Origin: Pyropia yezoensis
Taxonomy: Eukaryota; Rhodophyta; Bangiophyceae; Bangiales; Bangiaceae
Assembly (NCBI GenBank): GCA_009829735.1
Contig: CM020618.1
Span: 25,517,122 to 25,581,121 of the forward strand
DNA length: 64,000 bases
Direction: 5' to 3'
Shown here: piece after piece, positions 1 through 53,250 of the stretch
How positions within the stretch are numbered: the stretch's first letter is position 1
Layout of the letters: every line of letters starts with the position of its first letter
Program-made: the position numbers and the translations under genes
Notes under the pieces: model-generated
What the model was told of the DNA's origin: nothing
Databases searched by the model: none
What the model saw: only the letters and a program-made list of their open reading frames with translations

Positions 1-210
1 CACCCCAGCACCTGCCCACCGGGCCACACGAAAATTCAAGACGATAAATGCAGAAAACCCTCAAATCCAAGTTGGATTTACTACTAAGCTAACTATCCCG
101 AACTTAGGGAATATGGACCCAAATGGAGGGGGAGGAACGGATCAGGCTAGTGGCCTGCCGCCCCTTGCATGGCACGTGTTGCCCCCTACCTGGGGGTCAA
201 TACTGCCACA
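1..210 (-). repeat. 3' LTR of element A (partial, cut by window start)
   Basis: Bases 1-210 match 11109-11318 with one mismatch (a g/c difference near position 126) and an exact offset of 11108. The match stops sharply at 210, where the polypurine tract begins. The remaining ~258 bp of this LTR, judged by the full-length right copy, lie outside the window. Confidence 0.95.
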
Positions 211-223
211 CTCCCCTCTCCTC
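211..223 (-). other. Polypurine tract of element A
   Basis: Directly inside the 3' LTR the plus strand reads ctcccctctcctc, so the element's own strand has a 13-base all-purine run abutting the LTR's 5'-TG. This is the position and composition of the plus-strand primer site of LTR retroelements. Confidence 0.85.
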
Positions 224-553
224 AGTTCCGACCGACCCGGTCGGCCCTGTGAGGGGGTGCGTAAACGCACGTCTCGGCGTTGGGGGGGGGACGCGACTTG
301 CTGTCCCCCCTTGAGTACGTAACGCGGATGTGGAGGCGGTCACGTTGGCCGCCCCTCTCCTCAAGCTTGCCCACTTGGCAGCTTGCTCTCCTCGGTTCAC
401 ACCTCACCACCACCACCACTTCTCCTTCACCTTACACGGGGCCACCCCACGCTGGGGAGGCCACCCGTTTACCCACGATCCGAGTCCCCCTCAACTCGAG
501 GCGGGTCTCGTGCCGCGATAGCCAGGACGTCTCTCCCCAACTTGGGGAGAGCC

Positions 554-2497
554 ATGGCGACTCCGGGAGTGGAGACGGACTCTCTCGATGAGCGTATGGA
601 GGACACCTCCTACGGTGCAGCGCCTGCCGGGACTTCCGGCGGGGGCTCCGCGATCGCTCCGGGGGGTGGGACTCCCGCGTCACCCGGCTTTGGGTTGACG
701 GCAGGATCTCCCCCGGAGGCGGGACAAGTTGTCCCGCGTGAGGCCTTGGGGCGGTGGTTTTACCCCGCTTGGCCTCTGTATGAGGAGGGGTTGACTGTTC
801 TTCGCTGTGGCCGACTCGGCGCAGCGATGGGTCGGGTATGGGACCGCCTACGGGAGAAGTATCCCCGTAGGGTCGGGTTCCCTGCCGGCTTCAGGACGGA
901 CCAGTTTGCCTTCCTGGACGACGAGGAGGTCGAGGACGTGCAGCGGGCCAAGGCCATGGTGGACCGCGGGGGAACTATCCCGGGTCCCGGCGACTTGCCG
1001 ACCTTCACTTGGGACGCGGTGGCAACTCGCCCCCCGTACCTTCACGAGGCCGATCCGCACACTCATCACTTTGATGTGCGGATGGAGAAGGACTTCCGGC
1101 GAGGTCCCTACTTGGTGACCTCGGCTCAACTTGAGTTTCCTCAGCAGTCTGCTGCCAGTAAGGAGCAATACTACCCGAAGAAGCCCGAGTGGTGGCCTCA
1201 AGTTGAGGTCCCCTACGGGTTCCCGGCATTGTTGCCACAGTTGCTTGACCACTTCGGCTCCGTCATGTTGACGGCTGGCCCTGATCATCTGGTGTGGGCC
1301 ATGTTGGCCACCCAGTGGCTCCTCGAGGTCATGTCGACCTGGGTGTCATGTGTTCAGCGGCGGGGGATGCTCTGGCATCTCCCCCTCCGGCTCATCCAGG
1401 GTTTGGAACAGCTCACCCCTCAGCTAGTTGCTGAGGGGTGCTCGTCAGGACAACTCACTCTACTTGAGGAGATGCTCCGCCTCCACAAGTTTATCGAGTG
1501 GGAGAGCATTGAGCACAAGTTGCGCCGCCCCACTCGGGGGCCCAAGGACGATGGCGCACTTCGCCAGTTCGTGTGGGTCGCTCGTGAACTTCACGACGGC
1601 CGTGTGGTCCTACGAGAGGGGTTGGGCATCGGGGACTACCCGTATGCCCCGGGGGTGGATCGTCACACTGCGCCACCCCCGGACAAGCCCATAGTTATGG
1701 CTGTGCCCTCATATGATGACCATATGACTCAACCTACTGCGGGGGCCCCAAGTCGGGGTCGCAGTTACACCCGGGTACCGCCACCTCGGCGTGCCCCTCC
1801 GCTTCCTCCTGTTCCTTTCCAGCCTCACGGGAACATCCCGATCAGCGTGGCCGTGGAGTCATCCACACCGGTGTCTCCCAACTTGGGGGCCACCCTCCTG
1901 ACGGTATACCCCAAGTTGGTGTTACCGCCCACGCCTCTAACCTCAGAGATGATGATCACCACGTTGGTGCGCACCATTTCCTGGTTGGCCGCGTCGACCG
2001 CAACCCTCCAAAGTTCCGAGACTCCTCAACTTGAGGAGCGCGTTCGTACTGCAGTGGCGACCGCGAGTTGCGAGTCGGTGGCGGAGTTTATGACGGCCGA
2101 GTTGGCTCGCATTGGGGCTATTATGCCCCAGCCAACCCCACTTGGGCGTGGCAAGCGTCGTGCGAGCCGGGCATACTCGCCTCCTCGCCGTCGTCGCCGT
2201 CACTCGCGGCGCTCTCCCTCCGTGTCGGAAGACGAGTTGTCTTACTCCGTCTCGGAGTCCTCTACCCCATCGGAGACGGAGTCTGTCCAGCGTCTGCGTC
2301 GCAAACTTGCGCGCAAGACCAGGCAGAAGAGTAGCCACGGTCGGCGCCACTTGCGCGACCGTGAGGGGCGCGACGGTTCCGACTTGGAGCCGCCGCCCCT
2401 TCCAACGAGTGGAGAGCGTTATCGGCGTGGGTCTCGCCGCTCGCCTCCACGTGAGGGCGAGGGCCGTGGAGTGGGAGAGTCTAGCATGCGTGCCTAG
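554..2497 (+). CDS. Accessory antisense ORF of element A (function unknown)
   Basis: An open frame of about 648 codons runs antisense to gag-pol, between the 3' end of pol (stop at 2609) and the 3' LTR; the two genes converge with ~110 bp between them. The frame is open from 383, but the first ATG is at 554 in a good context (gagccATGg). The N-terminal ~60 residues are Gly/Pro/acidic. The middle (about 125-420 of the open frame) is folded-looking with many Trp/Leu. The C-terminus is Arg/Ser/Pro-rich (runs such as RRRRRHSRR), which could be a nuclear or nucleic-acid-binding tail. No zinc knuckle, catalytic motif, signal peptide or clear membrane span is visible. Element B has a homologous antisense ORF in the same place (16730-19039): for example EDVQRAKAMV against RDVHRALKV, VATRPPYL against VALEPPFL, and LWHLPLRLI against LWLLPELLM. 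I recognise no known family. Confidence 0.8.
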   Translation: MATPGVETDSLDERMEDTSYGAAPAGTSGGGSAIAPGGGTPASPGFGLTAGSPPEAGQVVPREALGRWFYPAWPLYEEGLTVLRCGRLGAAMGRVWDRLREKYPRRVGFPAGFRTDQFAFLDDEEVEDVQRAKAMVDRGGTIPGPGDLPTFTWDAVATRPPYLHEADPHTHHFDVRMEKDFRRGPYLVTSAQLEFPQQSAASKEQYYPKKPEWWPQVEVPYGFPALLPQLLDHFGSVMLTAGPDHLVWAMLATQWLLEVMSTWVSCVQRRGMLWHLPLRLIQGLEQLTPQLVAEGCSSGQLTLLEEMLRLHKFIEWESIEHKLRRPTRGPKDDGALRQFVWVARELHDGRVVLREGLGIGDYPYAPGVDRHTAPPPDKPIVMAVPSYDDHMTQPTAGAPSRGRSYTRVPPPRRAPPLPPVPFQPHGNIPISVAVESSTPVSPNLGATLLTVYPKLVLPPTPLTSEMMITTLVRTISWLAASTATLQSSETPQLEERVRTAVATASCESVAEFMTAELARIGAIMPQPTPLGRGKRRASRAYSPPRRRRRHSRRSPSVSEDELSYSVSESSTPSETESVQRLRRKLARKTRQKSSHGRRHLRDREGRDGSDLEPPPLPTSGERYRRGSRRSPPREGEGRGVGESSMRA

Positions 2498-2608
2498 TTG
2501 GCAGCTGCCTTTGTTGTGAGAGTGTGAGGGTTAGGGCTGTAGTTTAAAGCCACTCTGCGTACCACTTCGACTTGAAGCACTCTCTTGGCACTGTTGCTCG
2601 GCCTTCCC

Positions 2609-4171
2609 TCACGTTGAGGGAGGGCTGTTAGGGTCTATCTCGTTCCGGGCACAGTACGCCCGGACCTTCTCAGCAGGAAGGTCCTCCACATACTCCCACG
2701 TATCATCCTTGGCTTTGTAGCCAAACCAACGCACCCTCAACATGAGGCGGTCAGTATCCTCATCCCAGCCGTGGTCGATGAACTTGTCGAACACGTACTC
2801 CTGCGGGCCCTGTTTGGCTGCAGGCAGCGAGGGCAGGCGCCACGTTTTCAAAGCACGCGCCCAAGCTGGGTCGCCTGCAGGCGGTGGTGCAACTTTGACC
2901 ACGTCCTGTCCGTTCACTGTGCGGACCCCATCGTCACTTTCGATGGTGAAGCGCCGCCCATCAGTACGAAGGACCTGGTACGGCCCCTTCGTCTGGAACA
3001 CCAACTTACCCCCAGTTGGGGTGTGTGAGTGGACCAATACCCAGTCACCCTGCTCGGGGACATGCTTGGCGTTGCGCACCTTTTTGTCAAAGGTACGCTT
3101 GTAGCGCTTTTGTGCTTTGTCCATCTCAGCCCTGACTTTAGGGATGAGGTTTTCAAGCCTAGCAGCGAACTCCGCCTTACTCTCAGTAGGAGTGGGCGTA
3201 CTGCCACCATCCTCCCTAGTTGGGAGCGGCCGCCGCACGGCAATAGACCGCACGCGACGGGGGGTCACAAAAGCGAGGGGTACTTCCCCGGTAGATGAGT
3301 GAACCTGCGAATTGTAGGCAGTGGTCAGAATAGAAATGTATTGGTCCCACGTCTTCACGTGCTCACTCACATAATGGCGCAGCTGCCTAACAATAGTTTT
3401 GTTGAAGCGCTCCACCTGCCCATTAGTTTGTGGGTGGTAGGGGGTGGCATAGTTTGCCTTAACCCACAACATATCCAGCACTCCTTGAAACAGTACAGAC
3501 GCAAATTGCGGTCCATTGTCCGATAGTGTACTATCCGGAATGCCATACGCGGCAACCCAGTGATCTAGGAAGGCTGACACGACCGACATGGCCGTGATCT
3601 CTGCCAGTGGGATCGCTCGCGTAAGTTTCGTGAAGCGGTCACAGATGACCAGGAGGTACTGGTTGCCCTCCTCGGTCACTGGCAGTGGCCCAAGGATGTC
3701 CATCGCCAACGCGGCGAAGGGCTCCTTGGCCGGGAACAATAGCATAGCCGTAGTAGGCCGCCGTTCCATCAGACGGTTCTGTGCACAACTTGTGCAGGCA
3801 GCCACCCAACTGTAGATGTCCACCACCATGGACGGCCAGTAGTACCTGGTCCTCAGGGTCTGGTACAGTTTACTAGACCCCAGGTGTCCACCCGTGGGAG
3901 CGTTATGCTCCCTCTCAAGGATACTGTCCTTGAGGGATGCGGGGACGACAAGTTGTTCGGTCCCCTGGAATACCCCCCTCCTCATGAGGAGGCCATCGTC
4001 TCCCAGGAAGAACCGCGTCTCCGCCACTGTATCCAGGGTATCCCTCTGCGACTTGCAGAAGGGATCCTCGGCCTGGGCCTTCACTACTTCGTCCAGGGAC
4101 AGGGGCAAGTACTTCTTGTTCCCTGGCGCCTCGGGATTCAACGCCTGACCCGAGCGCGTGACTACCCCCAC
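2609..4171 (-). CDS. pol: pol C-terminus of element A: integrase and chromodomain
   Basis: This is the 3' part of pol, which inserts the cDNA into chromatin. In order: an HHCC zinc-binding region (REHNAPTGGH, then CTSC), the DDE core (MDILGPLP, SDNGPQF, GQVERFN), a basic linker with the GDWVLVHSH module, and a chromodomain over about the last 60 residues (VFDKFIDHGW, LRVRWFGYKAKDDTWE). Chromodomains in this family direct integration to marked chromatin. The frame starts inside the first copy of the duplicated segment. Its connection to RNase H is broken there by a one-base deficit near 4217 (gtaccgag, against gtacccgag in the second copy), most likely an assembly error. The stop is followed by the convergent antisense ORF. 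Confidence 0.93.
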   Translation of the reverse strand: MGVVTRSGQALNPEAPGNKKYLPLSLDEVVKAQAEDPFCKSQRDTLDTVAETRFFLGDDGLLMRRGVFQGTEQLVVPASLKDSILEREHNAPTGGHLGSSKLYQTLRTRYYWPSMVVDIYSWVAACTSCAQNRLMERRPTTAMLLFPAKEPFAALAMDILGPLPVTEEGNQYLLVICDRFTKLTRAIPLAEITAMSVVSAFLDHWVAAYGIPDSTLSDNGPQFASVLFQGVLDMLWVKANYATPYHPQTNGQVERFNKTIVRQLRHYVSEHVKTWDQYISILTTAYNSQVHSSTGEVPLAFVTPRRVRSIAVRRPLPTREDGGSTPTPTESKAEFAARLENLIPKVRAEMDKAQKRYKRTFDKKVRNAKHVPEQGDWVLVHSHTPTGGKLVFQTKGPYQVLRTDGRRFTIESDDGVRTVNGQDVVKVAPPPAGDPAWARALKTWRLPSLPAAKQGPQEYVFDKFIDHGWDEDTDRLMLRVRWFGYKAKDDTWEYVEDLPAEKVRAYCARNEIDPNSPPST

Positions 4172-5586
4172 GATGGGGATGTCCTCATCGACTGGGGTGG
4201 TGTCCAGTCCCTCGGTAGGTACCGAGAGAGGCCGTCGGCAAGGGCATGTTGCCTGCCAGGTCGGTACTCAATATCAAAGTTGAAGGGTGCAAGTCGCACC
4301 CTCCACCGGTTGAGACGAGTGTTCGTACAGTCCGTCTTGAAGATGAACTGCAACGCGCGGTGGTCACAGCGGATGAGGAACTTCTCACCCTCTAGGTAGT
4401 GACGAAGTGACGTCACCGCCCATACCACTGCGAGTCCTTCCAACTCGGTGACTCCGTAGTTCTTCTCGGCCGAGTTTAGCCCCTTGCTGAAGTATCCCAC
4501 CGGCAAGTACTCCTTGTCCGGCTGTTGCTGAAGCAACACACAACCAAGTTGGTCGTAGCTAGCGTCCACATCCAGGATGTAGTGGCCTCCCAACCTGGGA
4601 ATAGCCAGGATAGGGGGCTTCAGCAGAAGGTCCCGAAGAGTCTCAAAGGATTCCTGCTCCACCCGACTTGGGGGAGGCAGGTTCTTCGGTAGCGTTGAGC
4701 TCACTAACTCATTCAACGGCTTCGCCACTTTGGCGAAGCCCTTAGTGAAACGTCGGTACACGTTACACATCCCGAGGAAGCTCCTCATCTGGGTCTGGGT
4801 CCGGGGGTACTGAGCCTTGCGGATGGCCCTCAAGTTTTTCTCGTTGACACTGAGACGCCCCGGACGGACAACATGTCCCAAGTACTCCACCTCTTGAGTG
4901 AAGAGGTGGCACTTACTCGCCTTCAGTGACACTCCGGCGTCAGCAAGTAGCTTGAACACCTGGCCAAGATGGCCAATGTGTTCCTCCGGACTTCGGAGAA
5001 CACAATGATATCGTCTAGGTACACGAGACAGATCTGCCACCGTACTCCGGCCAGAATCATGTCCATAGCGCGCTGGAAAGTTGCCGGCGCGTTACACAGG
5101 CCAAACGGTAGACGCTTGCACTGGTAGGTACCACAGTGACAGGTAAAGGTAGTTTTATGCCTGTCCTCCGGGGCAATGGAATTTGCCAGTACCCCGCGTT
5201 ACAGTCCAGGGTAGAGAACACGTTTGCCTCCCCCAGAGAGTCCAGACAGTCATCCATCCGAGGTAGGGGATAACTATCCTTCACCGTGCTCTCGTTGAGC
5301 TTACGGTAGTCGATACAGAACCGGGGGTCCCATCAACTTTGGGACGATCACCACCGGACTCGCCCACTCGGCGTTGCTGGCCTCGATCACATCGAGGGCC
5401 TCCATGCGAGCAACTTGCTCCTTAACGAGGGCCCTTGAACGGGGTCCCCCCTATACGGTTGTTGGCGTATAGGGGGCGCACCGGGTTTCAACTCGATCCG
5501 GTGTTGGGTAGCTCTCATGAGTCCCAATTGACCATCCCACAACTTGTGATATTGGTCCAAGAGGCGTTCAACTTGAACCTCAACCT
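3892..5586 (-). repeat. First copy of a duplicated pol segment (assembly join)
   Basis: 3892-5586 (1695 bases) repeats at 6087-7789 (about 1703 bases) with almost no substitutions but several single-base length differences, mostly in homopolymers: ttcggag/ttcgggag, aatggaa/aatgggaa, ccgggggtcc/ccggggggtcc, aacctc/aaccctc. The copies sit on either side of exactly 500 Ns and run in the same direction. The right end of the first copy and the left end of the second abut the gap, as expected when two overlapping contigs are joined by a fixed-length gap rather than merged. Confidence 0.9.
4162..5284 (-). pseudogene. pol: RT/RNase H segment of element A pol, first (error-bearing) copy
   Basis: Holds the end of RT, the connection and RNase H. 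Readable blocks include FLGMCNVYRRFTKGFAK, DVDASYDQLGC (RNase H first Asp), ELEGLAVVWA (Glu) and RCDHRAL (Asp). The frame is broken between 5284 and 5057 and near 5035, where the second copy has an extra base in each homopolymer and stays open. The breaks are better read as consensus errors in a low-coverage contig end than as biological decay. This stretch is probably the same genomic DNA as 6087-7789. Confidence 0.8.
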
Positions 5587-6086
5587 NNNNNNNNNNNNNN
5601 NNNNNNNNNNNNNNNNNNNNNNNNNNNNNNNNNNNNNNNNNNNNNNNNNNNNNNNNNNNNNNNNNNNNNNNNNNNNNNNNNNNNNNNNNNNNNNNNNNNN
5701 NNNNNNNNNNNNNNNNNNNNNNNNNNNNNNNNNNNNNNNNNNNNNNNNNNNNNNNNNNNNNNNNNNNNNNNNNNNNNNNNNNNNNNNNNNNNNNNNNNNN
5801 NNNNNNNNNNNNNNNNNNNNNNNNNNNNNNNNNNNNNNNNNNNNNNNNNNNNNNNNNNNNNNNNNNNNNNNNNNNNNNNNNNNNNNNNNNNNNNNNNNNN
5901 NNNNNNNNNNNNNNNNNNNNNNNNNNNNNNNNNNNNNNNNNNNNNNNNNNNNNNNNNNNNNNNNNNNNNNNNNNNNNNNNNNNNNNNNNNNNNNNNNNNN
6001 NNNNNNNNNNNNNNNNNNNNNNNNNNNNNNNNNNNNNNNNNNNNNNNNNNNNNNNNNNNNNNNNNNNNNNNNNNNNNNNNNNNNNN
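5587..6086. other. Assembly gap (500 N)
   Basis: Exactly 500 undetermined bases, a round placeholder length. Because identical sequence lies on both sides, the true distance may be zero or negative (overlap). No biology should be inferred across it. Confidence 0.98.
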
Positions 6087-6843
6087 CCGTGGGAGCGTTA
6101 TGCTCCCTCTCAAGGATACTGTCCTTGAGGGATGCGGGGACGACAAGTTGTTCGGTCCCCTGGAATACCCCCCTCCTCATGAGGAGGCCATCGTCTCCCA
6201 GGAAGAACCGCGTCTCCGCCACTGTATCCAGGGTATCCCTCTGCGACTTGCAGAAGGGATCCTCGGCCTGGGCCTTCACTACTTCGTCCAGGGACAGGGG
6301 CAAGTACTTCTTGTTCCCTGGCGCCTCGGGATTCAACGCCTGACCCGAGCGCGTGACTACCCCCACGATGGGGATGTCCTCATCGACTGGGGTGGTGTCC
6401 AGTCCCTCGGTAGGTACCCGAGAGAGGCCGTCGGCAAGGGCATGTTGCCTGCCAGGTCGGTACTCAATATCAAAGTTGAAGGGTGCAAGTCGCACCCTCC
6501 ACCGGTTGAGACGAGTGTTCGTACAGTCCGTCTTGAAGATGAACTGCAACGCGCGGTGGTCACAGCGGATGAGGAACTTCTCACCCTCTAGGTAGTGACG
6601 AAGTGACGTCACCGCCCATACCACTGCGAGTCCTTCCAACTCGGTGACTCCGTAGTTCTTCTCGGCCGAGTTTAGCCCCTTGCTGAAGTATCCCACCGGC
6701 AAGTACTCCTTGTCCGGCTGTTGCTGAAGCAACACACAACCAAGTTGGTCGTAGCTAGCGTCCACATCCAGGATGTAGTGGCCTCCCAACCTGGGAATAG
6801 CCAGGATAGGGGGCTTCAGCCAGAAGGTCCCGAAGAGTCTCAA
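6087..6843 (-). CDS. pol: RNase H and start of integrase of element A pol (second copy, runs into gap)
   Basis: One open frame covers RNase H (DASYDQLGC, TELEGLAVVWA, IRCDHRALQF), the tether, and the first part of the integrase zinc-binding region (ends at REHNAPT) before reaching the Ns. Unlike the first copy, the RNase H to integrase passage is in a single frame here. It is separated from the RT frame only by the extra base near 6821. Confidence 0.85.
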
Positions 6844-7789
6844 AGGATTCCTGCTCCACCCGACTTGGGGGAGGCAGGTTCTTCGGTAGCGTTGAGCTCA
6901 CTAACTCATTCAACGGCTTCGCCACTTTGGCGAAGCCCTTAGTGAAACGTCGGTACACGTTACACATCCCGAGGAAGCTCCTCATCTGGGTCTGGGTCCG
7001 GGGGTACTGAGCCTTGCGGATGGCCCTCAAGTTTTTCTCGTTGACACTGAGACGCCCCGGACGGACAACATGTCCCAAGTACTCCACCTCTTGAGTGAAG
7101 AGGTGGCACTTACTCGCCTTCAGTGACACTCCGGCGTCAGCAAGTAGCTTGAACACCTGGCCAAGATGGCCAATGTGTTCCTCCGGACTTCGGGAGAACA
7201 CAATGATATCGTCTAGGTACACGAGACAGATCTGCCACCGTACTCCGGCCAGAATCATGTCCATAGCGCGCTGGAAAGTTGCCGGCGCGTTACACAGGCC
7301 AAACGGTAGACGCTTGCACTGGTAGGTACCACAGTGACAGGTAAAGGTAGTTTTATGCCTGTCCTCCGGGGCAATGGGAATTTGCCAGTACCCCGCGTTA
7401 CAGTCCAGGGTAGAGAACACGTTTGCCTCCCCCAGAGAGTCCAGACAGTCATCCATCCGAGGTAGGGGATAACTATCCTTCACCGTGCTCTCGTTGAGCT
7501 TACGGTAGTCGATACAGAACCGGGGGGTCCCATCAACTTTGGGGACGATCACCACCGGACTCGCCCACTCGGCGTTGCTGGCCTCGATCACATCGAGGGC
7601 CTCCATGCGAGCAACTTGCTCCTTAACGAGGGCCCTTGAACGGGGTCCCCCCCTATACGGTTGTTGGCGTATAGGGGGCGCACCGGGTTTCAACTCGATC
7701 CGGTGTTGGGTAGCTCTCATGAGTCCCAATTGACCATCCCACAACTTGTGATATTGGTCCAAGAGGCGTTCAACTTGAACCCTCAACCT
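6087..7789 (-). repeat. Second copy of the duplicated pol segment
   Basis: Counterpart of 3892-5586. This copy continues smoothly into protease/RT at 7790-8788 and is generally the better consensus. It has one error of its own, an extra C near 6821 (ttcagccagaagg, against ttcagcagaagg in the first copy), which breaks RT from RNase H. Confidence 0.9.
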
Positions 7790-8788
7790 GGGTGGAACAC
7801 CCTCCATGTTTACCTGGGGCCGAGGAGAGGCGGCCGACTTGGCTTGATGCTTCTCCTTTCCGGACTTCGGGTCGCTACTTGCGCCCGCGCTGAGGGTGAC
7901 CGCTACTACCGGTCCCTCGTGTTGGTCGATATAGCCGAACTTGGCCCCCGACTTGAAGAACTTGGGCGACGAGCTCAGGTTCATCACCTGGATCCTCCAC
8001 GGGACTCCGGCTTTGGAGTCCATCGTGCCCAGGGCAACATGCACTTGGTGCTTGCGAGCAAGACGGGGGTTAGGGTGCACCAACCCGTTCCCCGCATAAT
8101 CAGTTACAACATCCACGTGCGCCACCGAGTTGGGGGGCAACGTGACTTTACGGGCTAAACGCAGAGTAGCAGTAAACCCTTCCCTCACAGAACAAACAGG
8201 CTTCGACTGTGAAACTGTCACAGGAGCCACAGACTTTCCCTTACCAAGGATGGGGATAGTCTCCCCATTCATCAACTTGACCCAGTACTCAGGGCCACAA
8301 ATCAAAGGCACTTGTGTTACGACATAAGGGGTACCCAGAAGCAGGGGTACCGATATATTCTCAACTACACCATAGGTCACGTCGACCTCATGGGTCCCCA
8401 ACCGAGTTGGTAGGGTCACGGCACCAACGATGGGAAGTACCCCACCATTGATATCGATCAGATGGTCAGCTTTAGACTTCCAGCGTTGGAGCCTCATCCC
8501 CTTTGGTAATAGCGACTTGCGTATCAAGGAGGCTCCTGACCCGGTATCAAGTACGATACGGGCACAACAGGCGCGGCCGGGGGCAAGTTGCACCCGTCCA
8601 GCCACCTGGAAGTTCTCACCCGTCAGCACCGCGATGACCCGACGTGGGTTTACGTTCTTGGGAAGTCCCACCCGAGGTGGGCGGACTCCCTTAGGTCGCC
8701 GCAGTATCCGACACGGTTGGTTCGTCCTCTTGGCCCACTTGGCCGAGGCTGCCGTTGTGAGCTTCGGACGACCAGCTCCAACGGTCAT
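6755..8788 (-). CDS. pol: pol N-terminus of element A: aspartic protease and reverse transcriptase
   Basis: The frame opens with an ATG at 8788-8786 that overlaps the gag stop (ATGA) and lies in the -1 frame relative to gag. The retropepsin motif LDTGSGASL has its catalytic Asp at about residue 81. After a linker, RT shows FCIDYRKLNE, STLDCNAGYWQI, LPFGLCNAPATFQR and the active-site LVYLDDI with YLDD at about residues 524-527. The thumb/connection follows (YLGHVVRPG, FLGMCNVYRRF). Real homology ends near 6825; the last ~23 residues before the stop at 6755 are out of frame because of one extra base. Role: matures Gag-Pol and copies the RNA into DNA. Confidence 0.93.
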   Translation of the reverse strand: MTVGAGRPKLTTAASAKWAKRTNQPCRILRRPKGVRPPRVGLPKNVNPRRVIAVLTGENFQVAGRVQLAPGRACCARIVLDTGSGASLIRKSLLPKGMRLQRWKSKADHLIDINGGVLPIVGAVTLPTRLGTHEVDVTYGVVENISVPLLLGTPYVVTQVPLICGPEYWVKLMNGETIPILGKGKSVAPVTVSQSKPVCSVREGFTATLRLARKVTLPPNSVAHVDVVTDYAGNGLVHPNPRLARKHQVHVALGTMDSKAGVPWRIQVMNLSSSPKFFKSGAKFGYIDQHEGPVVAVTLSAGASSDPKSGKEKHQAKSAASPRPQVNMEGVPPRLRVQVERLLDQYHKLWDGQLGLMRATQHRIELKPGAPPIRQQPYRGGPRSRALVKEQVARMEALDVIEASNAEWASPVVIVPKVDGTPRFCIDYRKLNESTVKDSYPLPRMDDCLDSLGEANVFSTLDCNAGYWQIPIAPEDRHKTTFTCHCGTYQCKRLPFGLCNAPATFQRAMDMILAGVRWQICLVYLDDIIVFSRSPEEHIGHLGQVFKLLADAGVSLKASKCHLFTQEVEYLGHVVRPGRLSVNEKNLRAIRKAQYPRTQTQMRSFLGMCNVYRRFTKGFAKVAKPLNELVSSTLPKNLPPPSRVEQESFETLRDLLAEAPYPGYSQVGRPLHPGCGR

Positions 8789-10731
8789 TCGTTTCCCGCC
8801 GACTTGGCGTCCGAATCTGAGGGCGAAGGGGACGACGACGAGTCCGAGGACGACGTGTCCGCCCCCTCCGTCGAGGGTGTGGCGACCGCCACCACTGGTC
8901 GAGACCCACCCTCGCGGCGTGAACGCACTTCGTTCGTAGCCGACTTCTTACTCGCATTCCTAACAAGCTGTTGGATGCGTTTACTCAACTTGGGGCAATC
9001 ATATGCCCAGTGACCATCGGAGTTGCAGTTCCAACACCGATGATCAGTTCCCGGAGGGGTCTTCCCAACTGGGGAAGACGACGAGGTACCTTGGGAAGTT
9101 CCCACGGCAGCTACCACCCTCTCCTTGCGGATTCGGCGTGCCTCTCGCAACTCTCTGGCCTGGCGCGCCTCTTCCCGTTCCTTGGCCAACTCGGCCTGAC
9201 GCTCCTGGCGTTGTTCTTCCCGCAACTTGCGGTAGGCCTCGCCTCTGCGGTAGGCGAACCTGGCCAACTCGGCCAGGGTCGCCCGGGCAGTGTTATGCTC
9301 CCGGGTCTCCATCTGGACTGACCAGTGGAGTCCTTCCACAAACCGACTCTTCACCACAGCTTGTGGATGAAGAAACCCACAAAGATTGTTGAGCTTACGG
9401 ACTCGCTCCGCAAAGGACAACTCGTCCTCCGCCTCTTCCTGATGGGCTTGCGTAAACTCCTCGACTTGAGAAGCCAACGCCGCTTCATCAACCATGGCCC
9501 TCAACAACCAGTTGACGAGCTCCAAATAGGACGTCACCTCCCCAGCGCCTCCACTTGAGGAGCTGGGCATGACGGACATAAGTTCTGTCCGCAGGTCTCC
9601 CTTCGTAAACTCCTGTAGCATGTAAAAAGCCATGCCTTCACTTATGGCATTGTCGTCACAGGCTTTTGTGAAACGACGTAGGAACTCAAAGACACGGAGG
9701 GGGGGAGTTCCATCCCACTCCGTTCTGTGCCCAAAAGAATGAAGTGCATTCTTCTTGGCACGGCCCATAGCTCGGGCCTGGTCAGGACCATACGCCACCG
9801 ACTTGTTGTGGAGAGCGTAGGTCTCACAGTCAAAGATCCGCTGGTAGACCGGGTTGGCTACCTGAATCTTGGGCGGCACCTCACGTTGAGGGAACAGCCG
9901 CTGTGGCACTGGGGTAAGTCCACCCTCAGTGCCTGTAGTCTGGTACGGCGAGCTTGGTGTAGCCGCCGGCGTTTCCGAGGGGAACTCCCCCGTGAAGGGC
10001 GTACGCCCCACCGCGTATGGTGTGGCTCCCTCGTTGGGAGTCACAGGTGTCGCCCCCAGTTCGGGGCGACCCGAGATAGGCGTGGGGAGGGATTCCCCCT
10101 GCGCCTGTGGGCTCGAAAGCCCCAATCCGGTCTGGACATTCAGGCCATCTGGCAAACTCGCTACAATCTGATTCAGAATAGTATTCGTCATCGTGACCAC
10201 CAGGTCCGGCAAAGTCTGCCGCAACACATTGGTCGCCTCCCGACGGACAGTTTCCGCGAGGAGTGGATTGACGACTCCAGTTGAGTCTCGGTCCGCCTCC
10301 GGGAGTCCACCTGAGGGGTAACCACGTTCCTCAGGGGTCTCAACCGGGGGCATGGGCGCGAGCCCATCGCCGACCAACGGAGGTCCGCCGTCCTCCGAAA
10401 GCCTAGTTGGCGATGGCTCCATGCCAAAGTTGGCTCCAACCCGAGTGGAACTCGCGGGGACAGTCCTCACCCCTTGGGACGTTCCCGTTGAGTATACCAC
10501 GCGGTGGCCAGACTTCGGCCCACCCACGTCAGAAGTGTCACCCGAGTGAACTCCCGACTGAGTCGGGGTGGCCTGTTGCCCGCCCGCACTTCCAGTCCTG
10601 CTGGCTTGAGGGACCTCTAGTCCCTCTGCGACCCCAGGTAAACCCACCTGTGTCTCACCAGTATTCAAAGGCACTGAAGTACGTGCGTCACCCGTGTACT
10701 CCCCGGACGACGGGGGGTCCGAGCTAGCCAT
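8785..10731 (-). CDS. gag: gag of element A (capsid/nucleocapsid)
   Basis: About 648 residues from the first ATG at 10731 (the frame is open a little further upstream). The N-terminal ~300 residues are Gly/Pro/Thr-rich and look disordered. A helical capsid-like domain follows (VFEFLRRFTKACDDNA, ELVNWLLRAM, FAERVRKLNN), then a strongly charged coiled-coil-like stretch rich in EEQRQERQAELAKERE. One CCHC zinc knuckle (CWNCNSDGHWAYDC, about residues 566-579) precedes an acidic Ser-rich tail ending GNE. It forms the virus-like particle and binds the genomic RNA. The leader between the primer-binding site and this ATG is only ~100 nt. Capsid motifs align with element B gag (FAFLRRFVKACNDND). Confidence 0.92.
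   Translation of the reverse strand: MASSDPPSSGEYTGDARTSVPLNTGETQVGLPGVAEGLEVPQASRTGSAGGQQATPTQSGVHSGDTSDVGGPKSGHRVVYSTGTSQGVRTVPASSTRVGANFGMEPSPTRLSEDGGPPLVGDGLAPMPPVETPEERGYPSGGLPEADRDSTGVVNPLLAETVRREATNVLRQTLPDLVVTMTNTILNQIVASLPDGLNVQTGLGLSSPQAQGESLPTPISGRPELGATPVTPNEGATPYAVGRTPFTGEFPSETPAATPSSPYQTTGTEGGLTPVPQRLFPQREVPPKIQVANPVYQRIFDCETYALHNKSVAYGPDQARAMGRAKKNALHSFGHRTEWDGTPPLRVFEFLRRFTKACDDNAISEGMAFYMLQEFTKGDLRTELMSVMPSSSSGGAGEVTSYLELVNWLLRAMVDEAALASQVEEFTQAHQEEAEDELSFAERVRKLNNLCGFLHPQAVVKSRFVEGLHWSVQMETREHNTARATLAELARFAYRRGEAYRKLREEQRQERQAELAKEREEARQARELREARRIRKERVVAAVGTSQGTSSSSPVGKTPPGTDHRCWNCNSDGHWAYDCPKLSKRIQQLVRNASKKSATNEVRSRREGGSRPVVAVATPSTEGADTSSSDSSSSPSPSDSDAKSAGNE
8791..8797 (-). 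promoter_or_regulatory. Putative -1 ribosomal frameshift heptamer at gag/pol, element A
   Basis: On the coding strand the gag codons end gcG GGA AAC gaa tga, so GGGAAAC is in the X XXY YYZ phase required for -1 slippage, one codon before the gag stop. The -1 frame is open and leads directly into pol (G-K-R-M-T...). The same heptamer, phase and distance to the stop occur in element B. The ATG overlapping the stop leaves termination-reinitiation as an alternative. Confidence 0.6.
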
Positions 10732-10830
10732 GTTGGCTAACGATCCGTATGACACGGTCCAAGTCCACCGTTCCTCTGAGACAGAGGGCCCCCTACACCC
10801 GGGTGCACCCGGAGGTAAAGTTTACCTCTG

Positions 10831-10850: not shown

Positions 10851-11318
10851 TGTGGCAAAAACCACTTGCACACACAGTACCCAAGTTGGGGCGGTGTGCG
10901 AGGGCTGCCTCCCGTGTCGGGGGAACCGGAAGAAGTGCAAGTCGCACACACTCTATCCCTGTTGTGGGGCAATCCCCCCACGGACAAACAAGAAGATGGT
11001 GTGTGGTCCAACAGTTTCTTGGTCGGGACGGGGACGCAGGGCCAAGCCCCGCTGTCCCTCCCCTTATCCCCCCAGGGTCCACTCAGAATCTCGCCACTCA
11101 GAATCTCCCACCCCAGCACCTGCCCACCGGGCCACACGAAAATTCAAGACGATAAATGCAGAAAACCCTCAAATCCAAGTTGGATTTACTACTAAGCTAA
11201 CTATCCCGAACTTAGGGAATATGGACCCAAATGCAGGGGGAGGAACGGATCAGGCTAGTGGCCTGCCGCCCCTTGCATGGCACGTGTTGCCCCCTACCTG
11301 GGGGTCAATACTGCCACA
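10851..11318 (-). repeat. 5' LTR of element A (468 bp, complete)
   Basis: Bounded by a perfect 7-bp terminal inverted repeat: plus strand tgtggca at 10851 and tgccaca ending at 11318, giving TG...CA ends. The inner edge is fixed by the primer-binding site and the outer edge by where similarity with 1-210 stops and element B gag resumes. It should carry the element's promoter and polyadenylation signals. I see no canonical TATA box worth annotating. Confidence 0.88.
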
Positions 11319-12497
11319 GGTCCCACCCGGCGCAGGCTAGTCGAGTTTGACTTCCCTGCCCACCAAGTGGGAGATGCCACCCTGAACAAGGTCACGTATT
11401 GGGGTAACTACCGGCTGGAGAACCAAGACCAAGGTTACACCCGGAAGATGGCCAAGAAGATGGCATCCCTGAACCGGCGAATGCAGCCGAGCTTCGGGGG
11501 ACATCCTAAGTTTTCAGGGAAAAGACCGGCGCTTATCTTTGCCTTCCTGCGCCGGTTCGTCAAGGCATGCAACGACAACGATGTGTCCGAAAGCAAGGCT
11601 CTCTACCTCCTGGTTAACTTCATGACCGGAGAAGCGGAACAACGGTTTGCACAGGTTCTACCAGATTCTGCCGGACACATTGTCGGGCGTACCGTTGGGA
11701 GCTATCCAGAGGCGGTCAACTGGCTCCTGTCCAACTACGCTGACACGGACTCCCTGCGCAAGGCAGTTGGCAGGTTGAGCCGGGCAACCATGGAGCGACA
11801 AGAAGCTCCAGAGGCCTTCGCCCGCCGTGTCCGGGAGATGAGCGAGGCTTGCGGCAACGTTTACCCTGAGGACAGGCTCAAGATGATCTTCTCGGAAGGG
11901 CTTCCTGAATATCTTCAAGTGGACGCGGAGAACTACAACCAGGAACATCAAGAACATACCTTCCAGCAGTTGATGGCCTACACCCAGGGCAAGTACCGGC
12001 AAGCCAAGGCCCTCCAAGCTCCCATGGTATCAACTCCCAAGCCGTTGTCGCGAGCTCGTCCGGGACCCGACAAGTATAAGGGAGGTGATAGCCCTGTACC
12101 GGTACTCGCAGTTGGCGAGGCCTCATCCGTGGGGTCAGGGGACAAGTGGGGCGGCTTCGTTTCTAAGCAGCAACCTTCCCTGGTCGCCCCCAAGCAGGTC
12201 AAGAACCAGCGGTTCCGGTCTTGCTGGCTGTGCCAGAAGGAGGACCACATGTCCTACCAGTGCCCGACCATTCCCAAGGGTCTCCAGGAGAAGCTCAAGC
12301 GTCACGGACTGGTGTTTGCAAAGGCGGTCAACTGGGCTGACCGGAGAGCACCCTCCAAGATGGGCAAGGCACAGGTACACGCAATCCGAGTGGCAACCTT
12401 ACAGAGCATCACGGAGGCTCTGGCAAGGGAAGCTCCGACGGACTTTGACCTGGAGACCGAAACCTCTAAGGACTCCTCGGACCCGGGAAACGAGTAG
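11319..12497 (+). CDS. gag: gag of element B (5'-truncated by insertion of element A)
   Basis: The frame enters directly from the element A LTR at 11319, so the native start lies left of the window. Visible are the capsid-like helices (FAFLRRFVKACNDND, EAVNWLLSNYAD, FARRVREMSEAC), then one CCHC knuckle (CWLCQKEDHMSYQC), a basic stretch and an acidic tail ending DPGNE before TAG at 12495. It lacks the long disordered N-terminus of element A gag at least in this fragment. Ending both gags with GNE reflects the conserved heptamer at the frameshift point. Confidence 0.88.
   Translation, partial: GPTRRRLVEFDFPAHQVGDATLNKVTYWGNYRLENQDQGYTRKMAKKMASLNRRMQPSFGGHPKFSGKRPALIFAFLRRFVKACNDNDVSESKALYLLVNFMTGEAEQRFAQVLPDSAGHIVGRTVGSYPEAVNWLLSNYADTDSLRKAVGRLSRATMERQEAPEAFARRVREMSEACGNVYPEDRLKMIFSEGLPEYLQVDAENYNQEHQEHTFQQLMAYTQGKYRQAKALQAPMVSTPKPLSRARPGPDKYKGGDSPVPVLAVGEASSVGSGDKWGGFVSKQQPSLVAPKQVKNQRFRSCWLCQKEDHMSYQCPTIPKGLQEKLKRHGLVFAKAVNWADRRAPSKMGKAQVHAIRVATLQSITEALAREAPTDFDLETETSKDSSDPGNE
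12485..12491 (+). promoter_or_regulatory. Putative -1 frameshift heptamer at gag/pol, element B
   Basis: The gag codons end ccG GGA AAC gag tag. GGGAAAC is in X XXY YYZ phase, one codon before the stop, exactly as in element A. The -1 frame is open through the gag stop (G-K-R-V-G-Q...) and continues into the protease. There is no ATG overlapping the stop here, so reinitiation is less attractive than in A. Confidence 0.6.
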
Positions 12498-13528
12498 GGC
12501 AGGCGCTCTCCCCAAGTGTCTTCCCGAACCTCCGACGGAAGGGTACTTCTACCCGATCTCCCCTTGCGAGCCGGGAGAAAGGACGGCAGTTACCTGCTCA
12601 ACTGGTAGCCGCCTGGACACCCTGTTTGTTCAAGGGGACCTTGCTTGGCCTGCGTAAGGAAAACCTCAAGATGAATGCTCGTATGCGTGTGGGAGATAGC
12701 CTCTCCCAAGCTGTTACGCCGGTGGTTGACACGGGAGCCGGACGAAGCGTCATCACTGAGAACCTGTTACCTCCGGGCTGGCGTCGACATGCCTGGAGAG
12801 CGCCTTCCAGAATCCACACGGTCGACGCTTCAGGTCAAACCCTACGACCGCTGGGCCGTCTTCTCGTCGCCATCTATGTCAACAATGAACCAATGCTTTT
12901 TCCCTTTCTAGTAGTCAAGACTCTATCAGTCCCCCTCATCCTAGGCTGGGACTTCCAGAAGCAGCATGTCAAGAGCATCCTACCCGGAGAAGGAAAGGTG
13001 CAGTTTAACCATGGGTTTGTGTCACCGGTGTTGGAGCATCTGGATGCCAAGGTTCGTGTAGTCAAGAACAAGAAGGAACGCATCCTACCCTCTACCTTGA
13101 CTCTCTTCAAACCGGTGCTCCTACCTCCTCGCTCGGAGACCAAGGTTCAAGTAACGATTCGAACTGCAGGTCAATGCCTGATCTACGGACGTAAGGAATT
13201 TCTGGCGAAACACCGGTTGTACTTGGCCCACGGACATCACAAGAACGTAGAAAGGCACACCCCGTTCTCGGTGCTGATCGTCAACGTGAGCCGGAAACCA
13301 ATAACCCTCGCCAAGGGCACCCGAGTTGGTACAGCAGAGCCTTACCGGATGTCCGCCCGTGCTATGAGCAAGGAAGACCTCTTGAACCTGCAACAAGAGC
13401 TGGCATCCAACTTGACGGCCTTAGACGTACCTCCGAAAAAGAGCAGGCTGGCAGCGCCACTCCGAAGCCCGAACAAGCACCACCCGGGATGCCGAAGGTC
13501 AAACAAGAAAATGTTCCTCCCGACTTGA
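12497..13528 (+). CDS. pol: Protease region of element B pol
   Basis: Open in the -1 frame from the gag stop onward; the first ATG (12672) is internal, so it is probably made as a Gag-Pol fusion. The retropepsin motif VDTGAGRSVI has its Asp codon at 12728, followed by a flap/dimer region (FLVVKTLSVPLILGWDF). True coding in this frame ends near 13440. There it runs through CCGAAAAAGAG and continues one frame back in the RT ORF, consistent with one lost A. Element A has protease and RT in one frame, so the break here is decay or a consensus error. Confidence 0.82.
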   Translation, partial: GQALSPSVFPNLRRKGTSTRSPLASREKGRQLPAQLVAAWTPCLFKGTLLGLRKENLKMNARMRVGDSLSQAVTPVVDTGAGRSVITENLLPPGWRRHAWRAPSRIHTVDASGQTLRPLGRLLVAIYVNNEPMLFPFLVVKTLSVPLILGWDFQKQHVKSILPGEGKVQFNHGFVSPVLEHLDAKVRVVKNKKERILPSTLTLFKPVLLPPRSETKVQVTIRTAGQCLIYGRKEFLAKHRLYLAHGHHKNVERHTPFSVLIVNVSRKPITLAKGTRVGTAEPYRMSARAMSKEDLLNLQQELASNLTALDVPPKKSRLAAPLRSPNKHHPGCRRSNKKMFLPT

Positions 13529-15252
13529 AGGAGGCACTGAAGAAGCTTCTCCAGGAATATGGGCACCTGTGGTCTGGAGAGCTGGGCAAGATGGACGCCA
13601 CTCTACACCGGATTCAACTCAAGCCGGATGCCAAGCCAGTACACCTGCAACCATACCGGGCTGGACCTCATCGCCGGGATGAGATTGAGAAGCAGGTTAA
13701 CAAGATGCTCAAGATGGATGTCATCGAGCCGTCTGATGGCGAGTGGGCCTTCCCGGTGGTAGTCGTACCAAAACCTGGCGGTCACTTCCGTTTCTGCGTT
13801 GACTACAGGCGCCTGAACGAGATGACAGTCAAGGATGTATACCCGATACCCCGGATGGATGATTGCATCGACTTTCTTGGTGATGCCACCCTCTTCTCGA
13901 CGCTGGCTTGTAATGCCGGTTACTGGCAGATCCCTCTGGCTGACGTGGACAAGGACAAGACTACCTTCACGTGCCACCTGGGACTATTCCGGTGCAAACG
14001 TCTTCCTTTTGTTCTCACCAATGCTCCGGCAACCTTCCAGAGAGCCATCGACATCATCCTGTCGGGGCTAAGGTGGAGAACATGTTTGGTCTACCTGGAC
14101 GATATTATGGTTTTCTCTAAGACCCCGGCGGAACACCTGGAGCACCTTCGAGAGGTCCTGGCTCTCCTGTCCAAGGCTGGAGTTACCCTAAAGGCCGAGA
14201 ACTGCCACCTGTTTGAGACTGAGGTGGAGCACCTGGGGCACGTGCTGAGTCCGGGGGAGCTCCGAGTCAATGAGAAGAACATCAAGGCCCTCCGGCATGC
14301 ATGGCAACCTAAGACCCAGACGGAACTCAAGAGCTTCCTGGGTATGTGCAACGTCTACCGCCGGTTCGTAAGGGACTATGCCCTGATTGCCCGGCCATTG
14401 ACCAAGCTCATCAGCAAGAAGCTCCCCGCACAACTCCCGGTGCTCGACGAGAAGCAGACCGCGGCCTTCAAAGAGCTGAAGAGGCGCCTGACCACAACTC
14501 CAGTACTGGCGTTACCCAAGCGGGAGGGCCAGCTTGCCCTGGAGACTGATGCCTGTGGCGTCCAGGTGGGGTGCTCTCTACTCCAGCAGCAACCTGATGG
14601 GCACTTCCTCCCGATAGGCTACTACAGTCGCGTCCTGACTCCAGCCGAGAAGAGATATTCCACGACGGAGCGCGAGTGCTTGGCGGTCGTGTGGGCTTGC
14701 TTCCTTACACGTCCATATCTTGAAGGACAAGAGTTCCTCATCCGGACGGACCACGCCAGCCTAAGGTGGCTGCTATGCATGGACAGCAGCCAAGGAAGGG
14801 TCGCCCTGTGGCGCTTACGCCTTTTGGAATTTAAGTACAAGGTGTGCACCAGAGCAGGGAGGGAGCACCACTGCGCCGACACCATGTCCCGCCTGGAAAC
14901 TCCTGCAGCCGACACCGGTCCTATCCCGGAGGAAGTACCTTGTTTCATCCTCCCGAATGTCGGACGTGGCTGGCATGCTCCCCTGTATGAGACACCTGAA
15001 GCTCATCAACCGGTGACCATTCACCGGATGCTGGATGCACAACTGACGGATCCTCAATGCTTGGAGCTTCGCCACCAAATGGACCTGAACCGGAACAGTC
15101 GATTCTCCGAGTCTACAGATGGACTCCTGGTCCGGGTGTCACCCTTCGATGAGGCAACTCAAGTCTACGTACCCCGGAGTCTACGAGCTGACATCCTACG
15201 CCTGGAGCACTCGTCTCCCCAGGCCGGACATCCTGGTATCAATCGGATGTAG
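13489..15252 (+). CDS. pol: Reverse transcriptase and RNase H of element B pol
   Basis: The frame is open from about 13441; the ATG at 13489 is merely the first in frame. RT motifs: FCVDYRRLNEM, STLACNAGYWQI, LPFVLTNAPATFQR, and LVYLDDIMVF with YLDD at about residues 202-205. The position usually Asp in STLDCN is Ala here (STLACN), so one of the catalytic aspartates seems lost. RNase H: LETDACGVQVGC, TERECLAVVWA, RTDHASLRWL. The frame ends in TAG at 15250-15252 inside the integrase N-terminus, just after AGHPGINRM, and the same frame resumes at once as the integrase ORF. A non-functional remnant is most likely. Confidence 0.9.
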   Translation: MPKVKQENVPPDLKEALKKLLQEYGHLWSGELGKMDATLHRIQLKPDAKPVHLQPYRAGPHRRDEIEKQVNKMLKMDVIEPSDGEWAFPVVVVPKPGGHFRFCVDYRRLNEMTVKDVYPIPRMDDCIDFLGDATLFSTLACNAGYWQIPLADVDKDKTTFTCHLGLFRCKRLPFVLTNAPATFQRAIDIILSGLRWRTCLVYLDDIMVFSKTPAEHLEHLREVLALLSKAGVTLKAENCHLFETEVEHLGHVLSPGELRVNEKNIKALRHAWQPKTQTELKSFLGMCNVYRRFVRDYALIARPLTKLISKKLPAQLPVLDEKQTAAFKELKRRLTTTPVLALPKREGQLALETDACGVQVGCSLLQQQPDGHFLPIGYYSRVLTPAEKRYSTTERECLAVVWACFLTRPYLEGQEFLIRTDHASLRWLLCMDSSQGRVALWRLRLLEFKYKVCTRAGREHHCADTMSRLETPAADTGPIPEEVPCFILPNVGRGWHAPLYETPEAHQPVTIHRMLDAQLTDPQCLELRHQMDLNRNSRFSESTDGLLVRVSPFDEATQVYVPRSLRADILRLEHSSPQAGHPGINRM

Positions 15253-15258
15253 GCTTCA

Positions 15259-16584
15259 ATGCGACGACATTACTACTGGGAAACCATGGCCAGCGACGTC
15301 CATAAGCACCTGGAGGCTTGTGTTTCTTGTGCAAGGAACCGGTTGTCGCAGAGGAAGAAGACTTCTAAGCTACGCCTATTCCCTGCGGCGGAGCCCTTTG
15401 CAAGCTTAAGCATGGACATCCTGGGGCCCCTACCTGAAACATCCAGCGGCAACATATACCTGCTCATCATTTGTGACCGGTTCTCCAAGTTCACTCGAGC
15501 GATCCCGCTGAGGACCATTACGGCCGTGGATGTCACGTCAGCCTTCTGCGAGTACTGGATAGCTGCCTACGGCCCGCCAGACTCCGTCTTAACAGACAAG
15601 GGCCCCCAGTTTGCATCCCTGTTCTTCCAAGGAGTCTGTGACCTGATGGGCATCAAGACATTGTTCACCACGACGTACCACCCGCAAACGAACGGCCAGG
15701 TGGAACGATTCAACCGGACCCCAGTGGACATGCTACGGCCCTACGTGGAGGAGCACCAAGAAGACTGGGACGAGCTCCTGGCTGTCCTCACTCTAGCCTA
15801 CAACTCCCGAGTTCATCGGACAACGGGGGTCGCTCCACTCGACTTTGTCACCCCAAGGCGGCTTACCAACTTCTCCCTGGAAAGAATACCAGACGGTCTC
15901 CAGCCTGCACTGAAGTCAGGTCCCAAGGCAAAGGATGAGTTCCTGGAGCAACTGAAGCTCTTGCTCCCAAGAGTCAAGGAGTTAATCTCAAAGACCCAGG
16001 AACGATACAAGCGGGACTATGACAAGGAAGTTCGGGAAAAGAACAAGGAACTGGGTGGTGGCGACTGGGTTTTCGTGGACAATCATAGCAAGACCCGGGG
16101 GAAGCTGGACTCTAAGACGGATGGACCTCATGAGATCCTGAATACGGATGGCTGGACCTTCCTTCTAGACGTGAATGGCTCCCCGTACCGGGTGAGCAGC
16201 GACCATGTCACCCGAGCCCCACCGCCAAGCAAACGGGACTGGACCCGGCGCAAGCAGGCCGCAGTACCCTGGCTATCCCAAGAAGAAGGCCGGGAATATG
16301 TCTACGTCAAGTTTGTCGACCATGCCTGGAGGGACGGGCGCTTGTACCTGCGAGTACGCTGGATCGGTTTTAACCCGGCAGATGATACCTGGGAACCCTC
16401 AAACCGGTCACCTATCGCGGACGTCTGCGCCTACACGCGACGGAACGGGATTGAGGGCACTACAGTGGCCAAAGTCGGCAAGATCCTGGAATCGGACTCG
16501 GAAGAGGACCAGGAGGACGGGGCTGATCAAGACCCCCGGGACGAGCCGAGCTCACCCGCAACGAACGCGGAACAAGAGGATTGA
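15259..16584 (+). CDS. pol: Integrase and chromodomain of element B pol
   Basis: Same frame as RT, separated only by one TAG. Zinc-binding Cys pair (CVSCARN), DDE core (MDILGPLP, TDKGPQF, GQVERFN), linker module GGDWVFVDNHSKTRGKL, then a chromodomain (YVKFVDHAWRDG, LRVRWIGFNPADDTWE) and an acidic Glu/Asp tail. In DKGPQF, K replaces the usual N next to the catalytic Asp; the Asp itself is kept. The stop at 16584 faces the antisense ORF end at 16730 across ~145 bp. Confidence 0.92.
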   Translation: MRRHYYWETMASDVHKHLEACVSCARNRLSQRKKTSKLRLFPAAEPFASLSMDILGPLPETSSGNIYLLIICDRFSKFTRAIPLRTITAVDVTSAFCEYWIAAYGPPDSVLTDKGPQFASLFFQGVCDLMGIKTLFTTTYHPQTNGQVERFNRTPVDMLRPYVEEHQEDWDELLAVLTLAYNSRVHRTTGVAPLDFVTPRRLTNFSLERIPDGLQPALKSGPKAKDEFLEQLKLLLPRVKELISKTQERYKRDYDKEVREKNKELGGGDWVFVDNHSKTRGKLDSKTDGPHEILNTDGWTFLLDVNGSPYRVSSDHVTRAPPPSKRDWTRRKQAAVPWLSQEEGREYVYVKFVDHAWRDGRLYLRVRWIGFNPADDTWEPSNRSPIADVCAYTRRNGIEGTTVAKVGKILESDSEEDQEDGADQDPRDEPSSPATNAEQED

Positions 16585-16729
16585 GAAGAAGGGAACGGGT
16601 GTATCAAGGAAGACACGCAATACAAGCATGGGACTATCAAGAAAAACAAGCACCCGCTCGAGCAACCCTTCTCTACGCCTCTTCCCTCCTCGCTTCTCCC
16701 AAGACTCTCACCCTCCCTGCCTTCAAGTA

Positions 16730-19039: not shown

Positions 19040-19174
19040 CCCTGGCCCCGACTTGGTGCCGACCCGGGACTGCGCCCAGAAGGCACCAGGTGCCAGAACA
19101 CGCCCGCCGTGTGGTGATGGTTGGCGGCCGTGGCCCGTGCCTGGCACTGGGATGCGGTGGACTACGCTATTCAC

Positions 19175-53199: not shown

Positions 53200-53250
<51 letters not shown>

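Follow-up and report, generated by a model that had tools for sequence, protein, structure and literature searches.

Antisense accessory genes of LTR elements have been described for years without an assigned function. In fungi, Zhao et al. (2011) reportedly described such a gene, brtn, in Boty-like Ty3/gypsy elements. The closest parallels are additional open reading frames (ORFs) lying antisense between pol and the 3' LTR (aORF-3R), and in the accounts given in PMC7264820 and PMC11963269 these include gene23 of maize Grande, rice RIRE2 and ORF4 of Silene Retand. As outlined in the same accounts, aORF-3R frames are found in most copies of their elements and are conserved to a similar degree as gag-pol, and they have no assigned function (PMC7264820, PMC11963269). 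Retand is presented as a non-chromovirus lineage in which 97% of clusters encode TRP28 (PF04195) (PMC11963269), and the Boty-like elements with brtn are grouped with the aORF-3R class in the account of PMC7264820. For HTLV, both sources mention an antisense promoter in the 3' LTR and an antisense protein, HBZ (PMC7264820, PMC11963269). No report of an antisense gene in LTR elements of red algae was found in the open-access literature.

The locus described here comes from the red alga Pyropia yezoensis. The window, i.e. the whole stretch of DNA analysed, is 64,000 nucleotides long (G000:C1:25517122-25581121), and the genome searched for further copies was the assembly of this species (107.5 Mb in 11 contigs, three of them of 43.6, 34.3 and 29.4 Mb). 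Two elements, A and B, each have a long ORF antisense to gag-pol, and this ORF is shown below to be a selected, protein-coding accessory gene under constraint similar to that on gag and pol. Element A is a young Ty3/gypsy element on the minus strand, with the antisense ORF opposite gag-pol. It sits inside the gag region of a decayed copy of B (window 11319; flanks in locus L001, 1-690), forming one nested pair with a 5-bp target duplication, GGTCC. The features of the window are as follows.

1..210, minus strand: inner portion of the 3' LTR of A, the remaining ~258 bp of its 468 bp preceding the window.
211..223, minus strand: polypurine tract of A, GAGGAGAGGGGAG on the gag-pol strand, adjoining the 3' LTR (sequence reading).
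211..553, plus strand: leader of A, from the LTR to the antisense start codon (sequence reading).
554..2497, plus strand: antisense ORF of element A, 647 aa, with its ATG at 554 in the context gccATGGc.
731..1690, plus strand: residues 60-379 of the A antisense protein, its core region, including the part aligned with B (A-B alignment).
2153..2200, plus strand: basic stretch KRRASRAYSPPRRRRR, possibly a nuclear localisation signal, within a tail rich in Arg and Ser; A only.
2498..2608, no strand: spacer of 111 bp that separates pol from the antisense ORF in A, the two stops converging on it (ORF ends).
2609..8788, minus strand: pol of element A, with H2C2, rve and a weak chromodomain at the pol end (2609-4171).
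8785..10755, minus strand: gag frame of element A, with a CCHC zinc knuckle (ORF and domain search).
10851..11318, minus strand: 5' LTR of element A (LTR comparison).
11319..19603, plus strand: element B, a decayed copy, its 5' end lost where A inserted (target duplication GGTCC).
16585..16729, no strand: 145-bp spacer from the pol stop to the antisense stop in B (window copy).
16730..18847, minus strand: degenerate B antisense frame, with ACG as start codon (18845-18847) and three stops; 705 codons in open copies.
19032..19603, plus strand: 3' LTR of element B, with the same 572-bp length as that of L033 (LTR comparison).

The two LTRs of element A are 468 bp each and 99.6% identical (L001 690-1157 against window 10851-11318), with the termini TGTGGCA...TGCCACA. 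The antisense frame is stop-free from a TTG at 383 to 2497 on the plus strand. Across 211-2608, the longest stop-free frame is 724 codons; in 500 first-order Markov sequences it averaged 214 codons and never exceeded 395. The leader, 211..553, is 94.7% identical to that of one older copy, L040, and 90.5% identical to that of another, L039. Within pol, a 500-base N gap (5587-6086) lies between two near-identical 2.2-kb pol pieces (window 3892-7781), and the gap and duplication are probably an assembly fault.

A sequence-only reading of this locus had reported a long antisense ORF in both elements, ending about 110 bp (A) and 145 bp (B) from the pol stop. Both distances were confirmed, as was the intact ORF of A; for B, the long frame is open in other copies of the genome, and the copy in the window is broken. 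The frame could be traced in 19 fetched B copies; in 17 of them it runs from the conserved start, and in all 17 it is exactly 705 codons long. In one of these copies, L033, the LTR (562-1133) is followed by the antisense ORF (1321-3435, 705 codons), a 151-bp spacer and pol (3587-7699, 1371 codons), and its LTR pair (with L042) is identical over 572 bp. In all, 20 B loci were fetched, most of them selected as stop-free. This choice raises the apparent intactness and lowers the number of frameshift indels in the ORF, but cannot itself generate a low pN/pS. The layout of the frame is the same in A, B and an older A-type copy, L045, with identical place and orientation and convergent stops.

Elsewhere in the window, four further plus-strand ORFs were observed. 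The first (24523-25992, 489 aa) has Plant_tran (PF04827) and DDE_Tnp_4 (PF13359) domains and is presumably a Harbinger-type transposase. An ORF of 1150 aa (35629-39081) has an RVT_2 match slightly under the cut-off and is perhaps a copia-type element. The remaining two, one of 1881 aa (47981-53626) whose C2H2 zinc fingers lie around residues 1494-1532 and one of 718 aa (54235-56391) with a YIF1 domain at its end, are likely to be host genes. A search of the window against Rfam gave no match.

Both families are present in high copy number. At least 68 A copies were scored, from 3685 first-look candidates, and all 68 were full length and without a stop over 647 codons. With a diverged relative as query, 144 of 150 A-type matches scored, among those listed from 1756 candidates, were stop-free over the 209-aa core. 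For B, among the matches listed and with the window copy counted, 82/101 were stop-free over the 413 codons queried, and 142/150 over a core of 236 codons. The expectation that the ORF would be present in other copies is therefore borne out (68/68 scored in A and 82/101 in B, among the matches listed), bearing in mind that these counts are lower bounds which favour good copies and that the queries were antisense proteins, such that copies lacking the frame are not counted. In at least 68 A copies the antisense protein rounds to 100% identity with that of the window, and seven copies compared as DNA differ from it at 2 to 9 of 1944 bases. Near-identity on this scale suggests a very recent burst of A.

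The evidence for a coding function comes from selection on the antisense protein. Across 17 B copies (136 pairs, mean dS 0.16), pN/pS in the antisense frame was 0.29, compared with 1.47 and 1.50 in the other two forward frames and 1.17, 0.345 and 1.68 in the reverse frames. The value of 0.345 can be regarded as an echo of the real frame, since that reverse frame has third codon positions in common with it and contains about ten stops per copy. L035 (500 N and no traced long antisense frame), as well as L019 and L024, which are broken before the conserved start, were left out of this set. When the genes of B were compared by a single method, pN/pS was 0.29 for the antisense gene (21 sequences), 0.22 for pol (19) and 0.26 for gag (15); this comparison drew on all 20 fetched B loci and the decayed window copy, with copies spanning 60% or less of a gene excluded. 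Constraint along the B frame is uneven, with pN/pS of 0.11-0.28 over codons 95-376 and 0.15-0.26 over codons 471-611, and 0.44-0.79 over the remainder.

Near-identical young copies of A are uninformative on selection, e.g. A and L002 differ by two nonsynonymous and one synonymous change. Comparison of A with older copies gave 9 nonsynonymous and 33 synonymous changes for L038, which spans 66% of the frame (pN/pS 0.10), 21 and 52 for L039, which has one stop (0.14), and 13 and 59 for L040 (0.08). Pairs among these three copies gave higher ratios, 0.19-0.36, from fewer changes. Over longer distances, omega was 0.265 between A and L045 (66% protein identity, matching convergent layout, dS 0.80) and 0.285 between B and its relative L046 (dS 0.52), for which no pol end was detected within the 3.7 kb covered. 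L045 carries three stops and L046 one, and both are thus old copies. In addition, distinct indels among B copies relative to L033 numbered 17 in the leader (187 bp; 17 copies, as L024 and L035 begin within the ORF) and four in the ORF (2115 bp; 19 copies, including two partial ones). This corresponds to 9.1 per 100 bp in the leader against 0.19 in the frame, a contrast partly due to the choice of stop-free copies; of indels in multiples of three, which that choice does not affect, the leader had four and the frame had none. The contrast fits a presumed start at the conserved ATG. The earlier proposal of a selected gene, to be judged by dN/dS, is accordingly upheld, with pN/pS far below 1 in B (0.29) and in A (0.08-0.14) and omega of 0.27 and 0.29, and the synonymous divergence, dS up to 0.8, supports a gene that would be old within A and within B.

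The sequence-only reading recognised no family for the antisense proteins, and the searches agree, with no Pfam (E up to 1) or NCBIfam domain in the protein of A or B. PF04195 (Transposase_28) is absent from both, and a search of the genome for it gave no match. AlphaFold2 models of the A and B cores had mean pLDDT values of 31.5 and 33.3, with no usable fold, and PDB sequence searches with the A-B alignment or with A gave no match. The search with B returned five Rieske proteins (best E 0.0044), aligned to an Ala/Pro-rich stretch and regarded as compositional. The highest hydropathy over 19 residues was 1.23 and 1.54 in the two proteins, with no strong transmembrane-like stretch, and the basic pattern resembling a nuclear localisation signal (NLS) in the tail of A was not found in B with the same pattern. 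At the C-terminal place of pol, matches to the chromodomain profile PF00385 scored 20.9 bits in A (E 3.5e-4) and 20.4 bits in B (E 4.8e-4), both under the cut-off of 25.1 bits.

Among the matches listed in the protein searches (8,000 candidates scored each), only the A and B families appeared, represented by P0001, P0004 (A type), P0002, P0003 (B type); P0004 is 86% and P0003 95% identical to subfamily copies of the same genome. Pattern matches in prokaryotic and viral contigs (21 and 37) yielded no confirmed relative. Two other gypsy-like lineages, C (L043) and D (L044), had no antisense homologue in the 2.2 kb beyond pol in the one copy of each, which leaves absence from the whole lineage unproven. 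Owing to short length or decay, the element of L037 and the minus-strand element of L041 could not be scored for an antisense frame. A further, varied gypsy-like lineage (G000:C1:16762707, i.e. L037, and G000:C1:5412922) has pol frames of ~1438 codons in several copies, and stretches of its pol share 33-68% identity with A and B. The one copy examined showed no detectable antisense homologue.

Whether the antisense proteins of A and B are related is a separate question. An ordered series of motifs had been read as common to the two, with shuffled controls proposed as the check. By blastp, A 156-314 aligned with B 200-362 at 44.7 bits (E 9e-9 as a single comparison), above all 3,000 shuffles (1,000 whole and 2,000 in 20-residue windows; best 34.3 bits). 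The profile methods gave borderline results. By hhalign, P was 0.0019 and 0.0028, with a probability of just 14.5% and 10.9%; by hmmsearch, the B profile scored 6.3, 6.2 and -2.1 bits on A against a best shuffle of 7.4, and the A profile scored 14.5, 7.4 and 5.2 bits on B against 5.8. The controls are hence passed by blastp and not clearly by hhalign and hmmsearch, and the motif series, in which the motifs of B were read across stops, corresponds to a weak similarity that is probably genuine. It is improbable that A and B gained unrelated antisense genes independently or by recombination and that their motifs are alike by chance or convergence, even though several observations would suit such a history. 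Besides the borderline profiles, the L045 protein is at noise level, below shuffles, against B (21.2 bits, shuffle 30.0) and against L046 (16.5, shuffle 32.0), and A against L046 (28.1 bits) is level with the best shuffle (27.7). Columns identical between A and B show no excess conservation in P0004 (28/39 vs 77/117, p 0.31) or P0003 (29/37 vs 88/105, p 0.84). Moreover, the antisense ORFs of plants and fungi are already dissimilar among themselves, according to the account in PMC7264820. An independent gain is nevertheless at odds with the blastp score and with the weaker matches A-P0003, A-L046, P0004-B and L045-B, which fall roughly on one common diagonal, L045-L046 lying off it. It also leaves A and B alike in place, orientation, length class and convergent stop, and the integrases of A and B are the closest pair among four lineages (53.8% identity vs 40-51% for the others), though B and C are near at 51.4%. 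The thin similarity, taken with the same position and orientation, makes descent of the two proteins from one gene very probable in our judgement, which is not a computed value. An ancient shared gene, as claimed earlier, is therefore supported in its age within each family, and across the families as a likely descent on thin similarity.

The interpretation we favour, and hold to be probable, is that two high-copy Ty3/gypsy families have a conserved accessory gene on the antisense strand which acts through its protein. A separate antisense transcript would start in the 3' LTR or the leader and be translated. The protein would then work in trans as a regulator or helper, with the element's own RNA, DNA or transcription as its target and the nucleus as the most probable place of action. 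Grande GENE23 would be a comparable case, and HTLV-1 HBZ one by analogy alone. Lineages losing the gene would have ceased to spread. The nuclear step is weak for B, as the NLS-like stretch was found in A alone. The B LTR of L033 (562-1133), read in the antisense direction, begins TGTGGTATAAAAC, and the one TATA box that it contains is on that strand, where it is retained in most of the B LTRs examined. By its motif, this box is a candidate antisense promoter. No TATA motif was seen in the A LTR or in the A leader (211..553), and the leader of A may itself hold an antisense promoter or lie downstream of one. It is doubtful, if worth stating, that this old protein family is a trans-acting nuclear factor (countering silencing or steering integration, for example) on which the spread of A and B depended, and that antisense accessory genes arose separately in plant, fungal and red algal elements. 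If this were true, the separate origins would point to a general advantage of a late gene transcribed from the 3' end.

Genomic RNA would span the whole antisense gene, and consequently an antisense mRNA would be complementary to it over its full length, and not just at the convergent junction, where the sequence-only reading had placed the pairing. An additional regulatory effect of the antisense RNA is thus possible, and RNA and protein roles may exist side by side. It is quite unlikely that the RNA is the sole functional product, as a source of dsRNA or siRNA limiting copy number, with the long frame incidental. The convergent layout, with 111-151 bp between stops, suits such a role, and PMC7264820 discusses the regulation of LTR elements by antisense RNAs, but a role of the RNA alone does not predict selection on amino acids (pN/pS 0.08-0.29, omega 0.27-0.29), nor ratios above 1 in four of the five control frames. 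A protein of another kind was also considered. The slot is that of env-like ORFs, yet an env-like or second structural (gag-like) gene is very unlikely, given an orientation opposite to that of env, the low hydropathy maxima and hhalign probabilities of at most 1.3% against the gag of A or B, where gag A and gag B reach 99.6% with one another. The region is 63% G+C, and long open frames are commoner in such sequence, but a captured host gene or a frame arising as a by-product of G+C-rich sequence is extremely unlikely. The frame is longer than in any of the 500 random sequences, selection in the 17 B copies matches the antisense frame, and the protein matches listed are confined to A and B. 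A host paralogue in this genome may yet lie beyond the scored genome lists, which close copies fill. An accessory gene acting through its protein remains the preferred account of the locus, and the selection signal alone does not reveal what that protein does.

The architecture of A and B is known from plants. That antisense extra ORFs occur in some plant LTR elements had been noted in the sequence-only reading and is in keeping with Grande, RIRE2 and Retand as covered in PMC7264820. Like the ORFs of these elements, those of A and B lie between pol and the 3' LTR and are antisense to gag-pol. As in the aORF-3R class, the frame is present in most scored copies, and its pN/pS in B is close to the values for pol and gag. 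Grande, RIRE2 and Retand are elements of flowering plants, whereas A and B belong to a red alga and have a chromodomain-like pol end; and while Retand proteins carry PF04195, the antisense proteins of A and B do not. Boty-like elements are, by description, LTR elements outside plants that have an additional antisense gene, as A and B do. The likeness to HTLV-1 HBZ is one of analogy only, between antisense proteins, that of A and B being without a Pfam domain. An env-like ORF is in sense orientation and has a transmembrane segment, whereas the frames of A and B are antisense, with hydropathy no higher than 1.23 and 1.54. The system brings together, within one small genome, two high-copy families with many open copies and several older subfamilies, and selection on the protein gives a clean signal; the open copies and this signal make promoter mapping, localisation and comparative tests practical. 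What is new is that the elements, of another lineage and of chromodomain type, encode a protein for which no relatives were detectable; the aORF-3R class is thereby extended to a red alga and to elements of this type.
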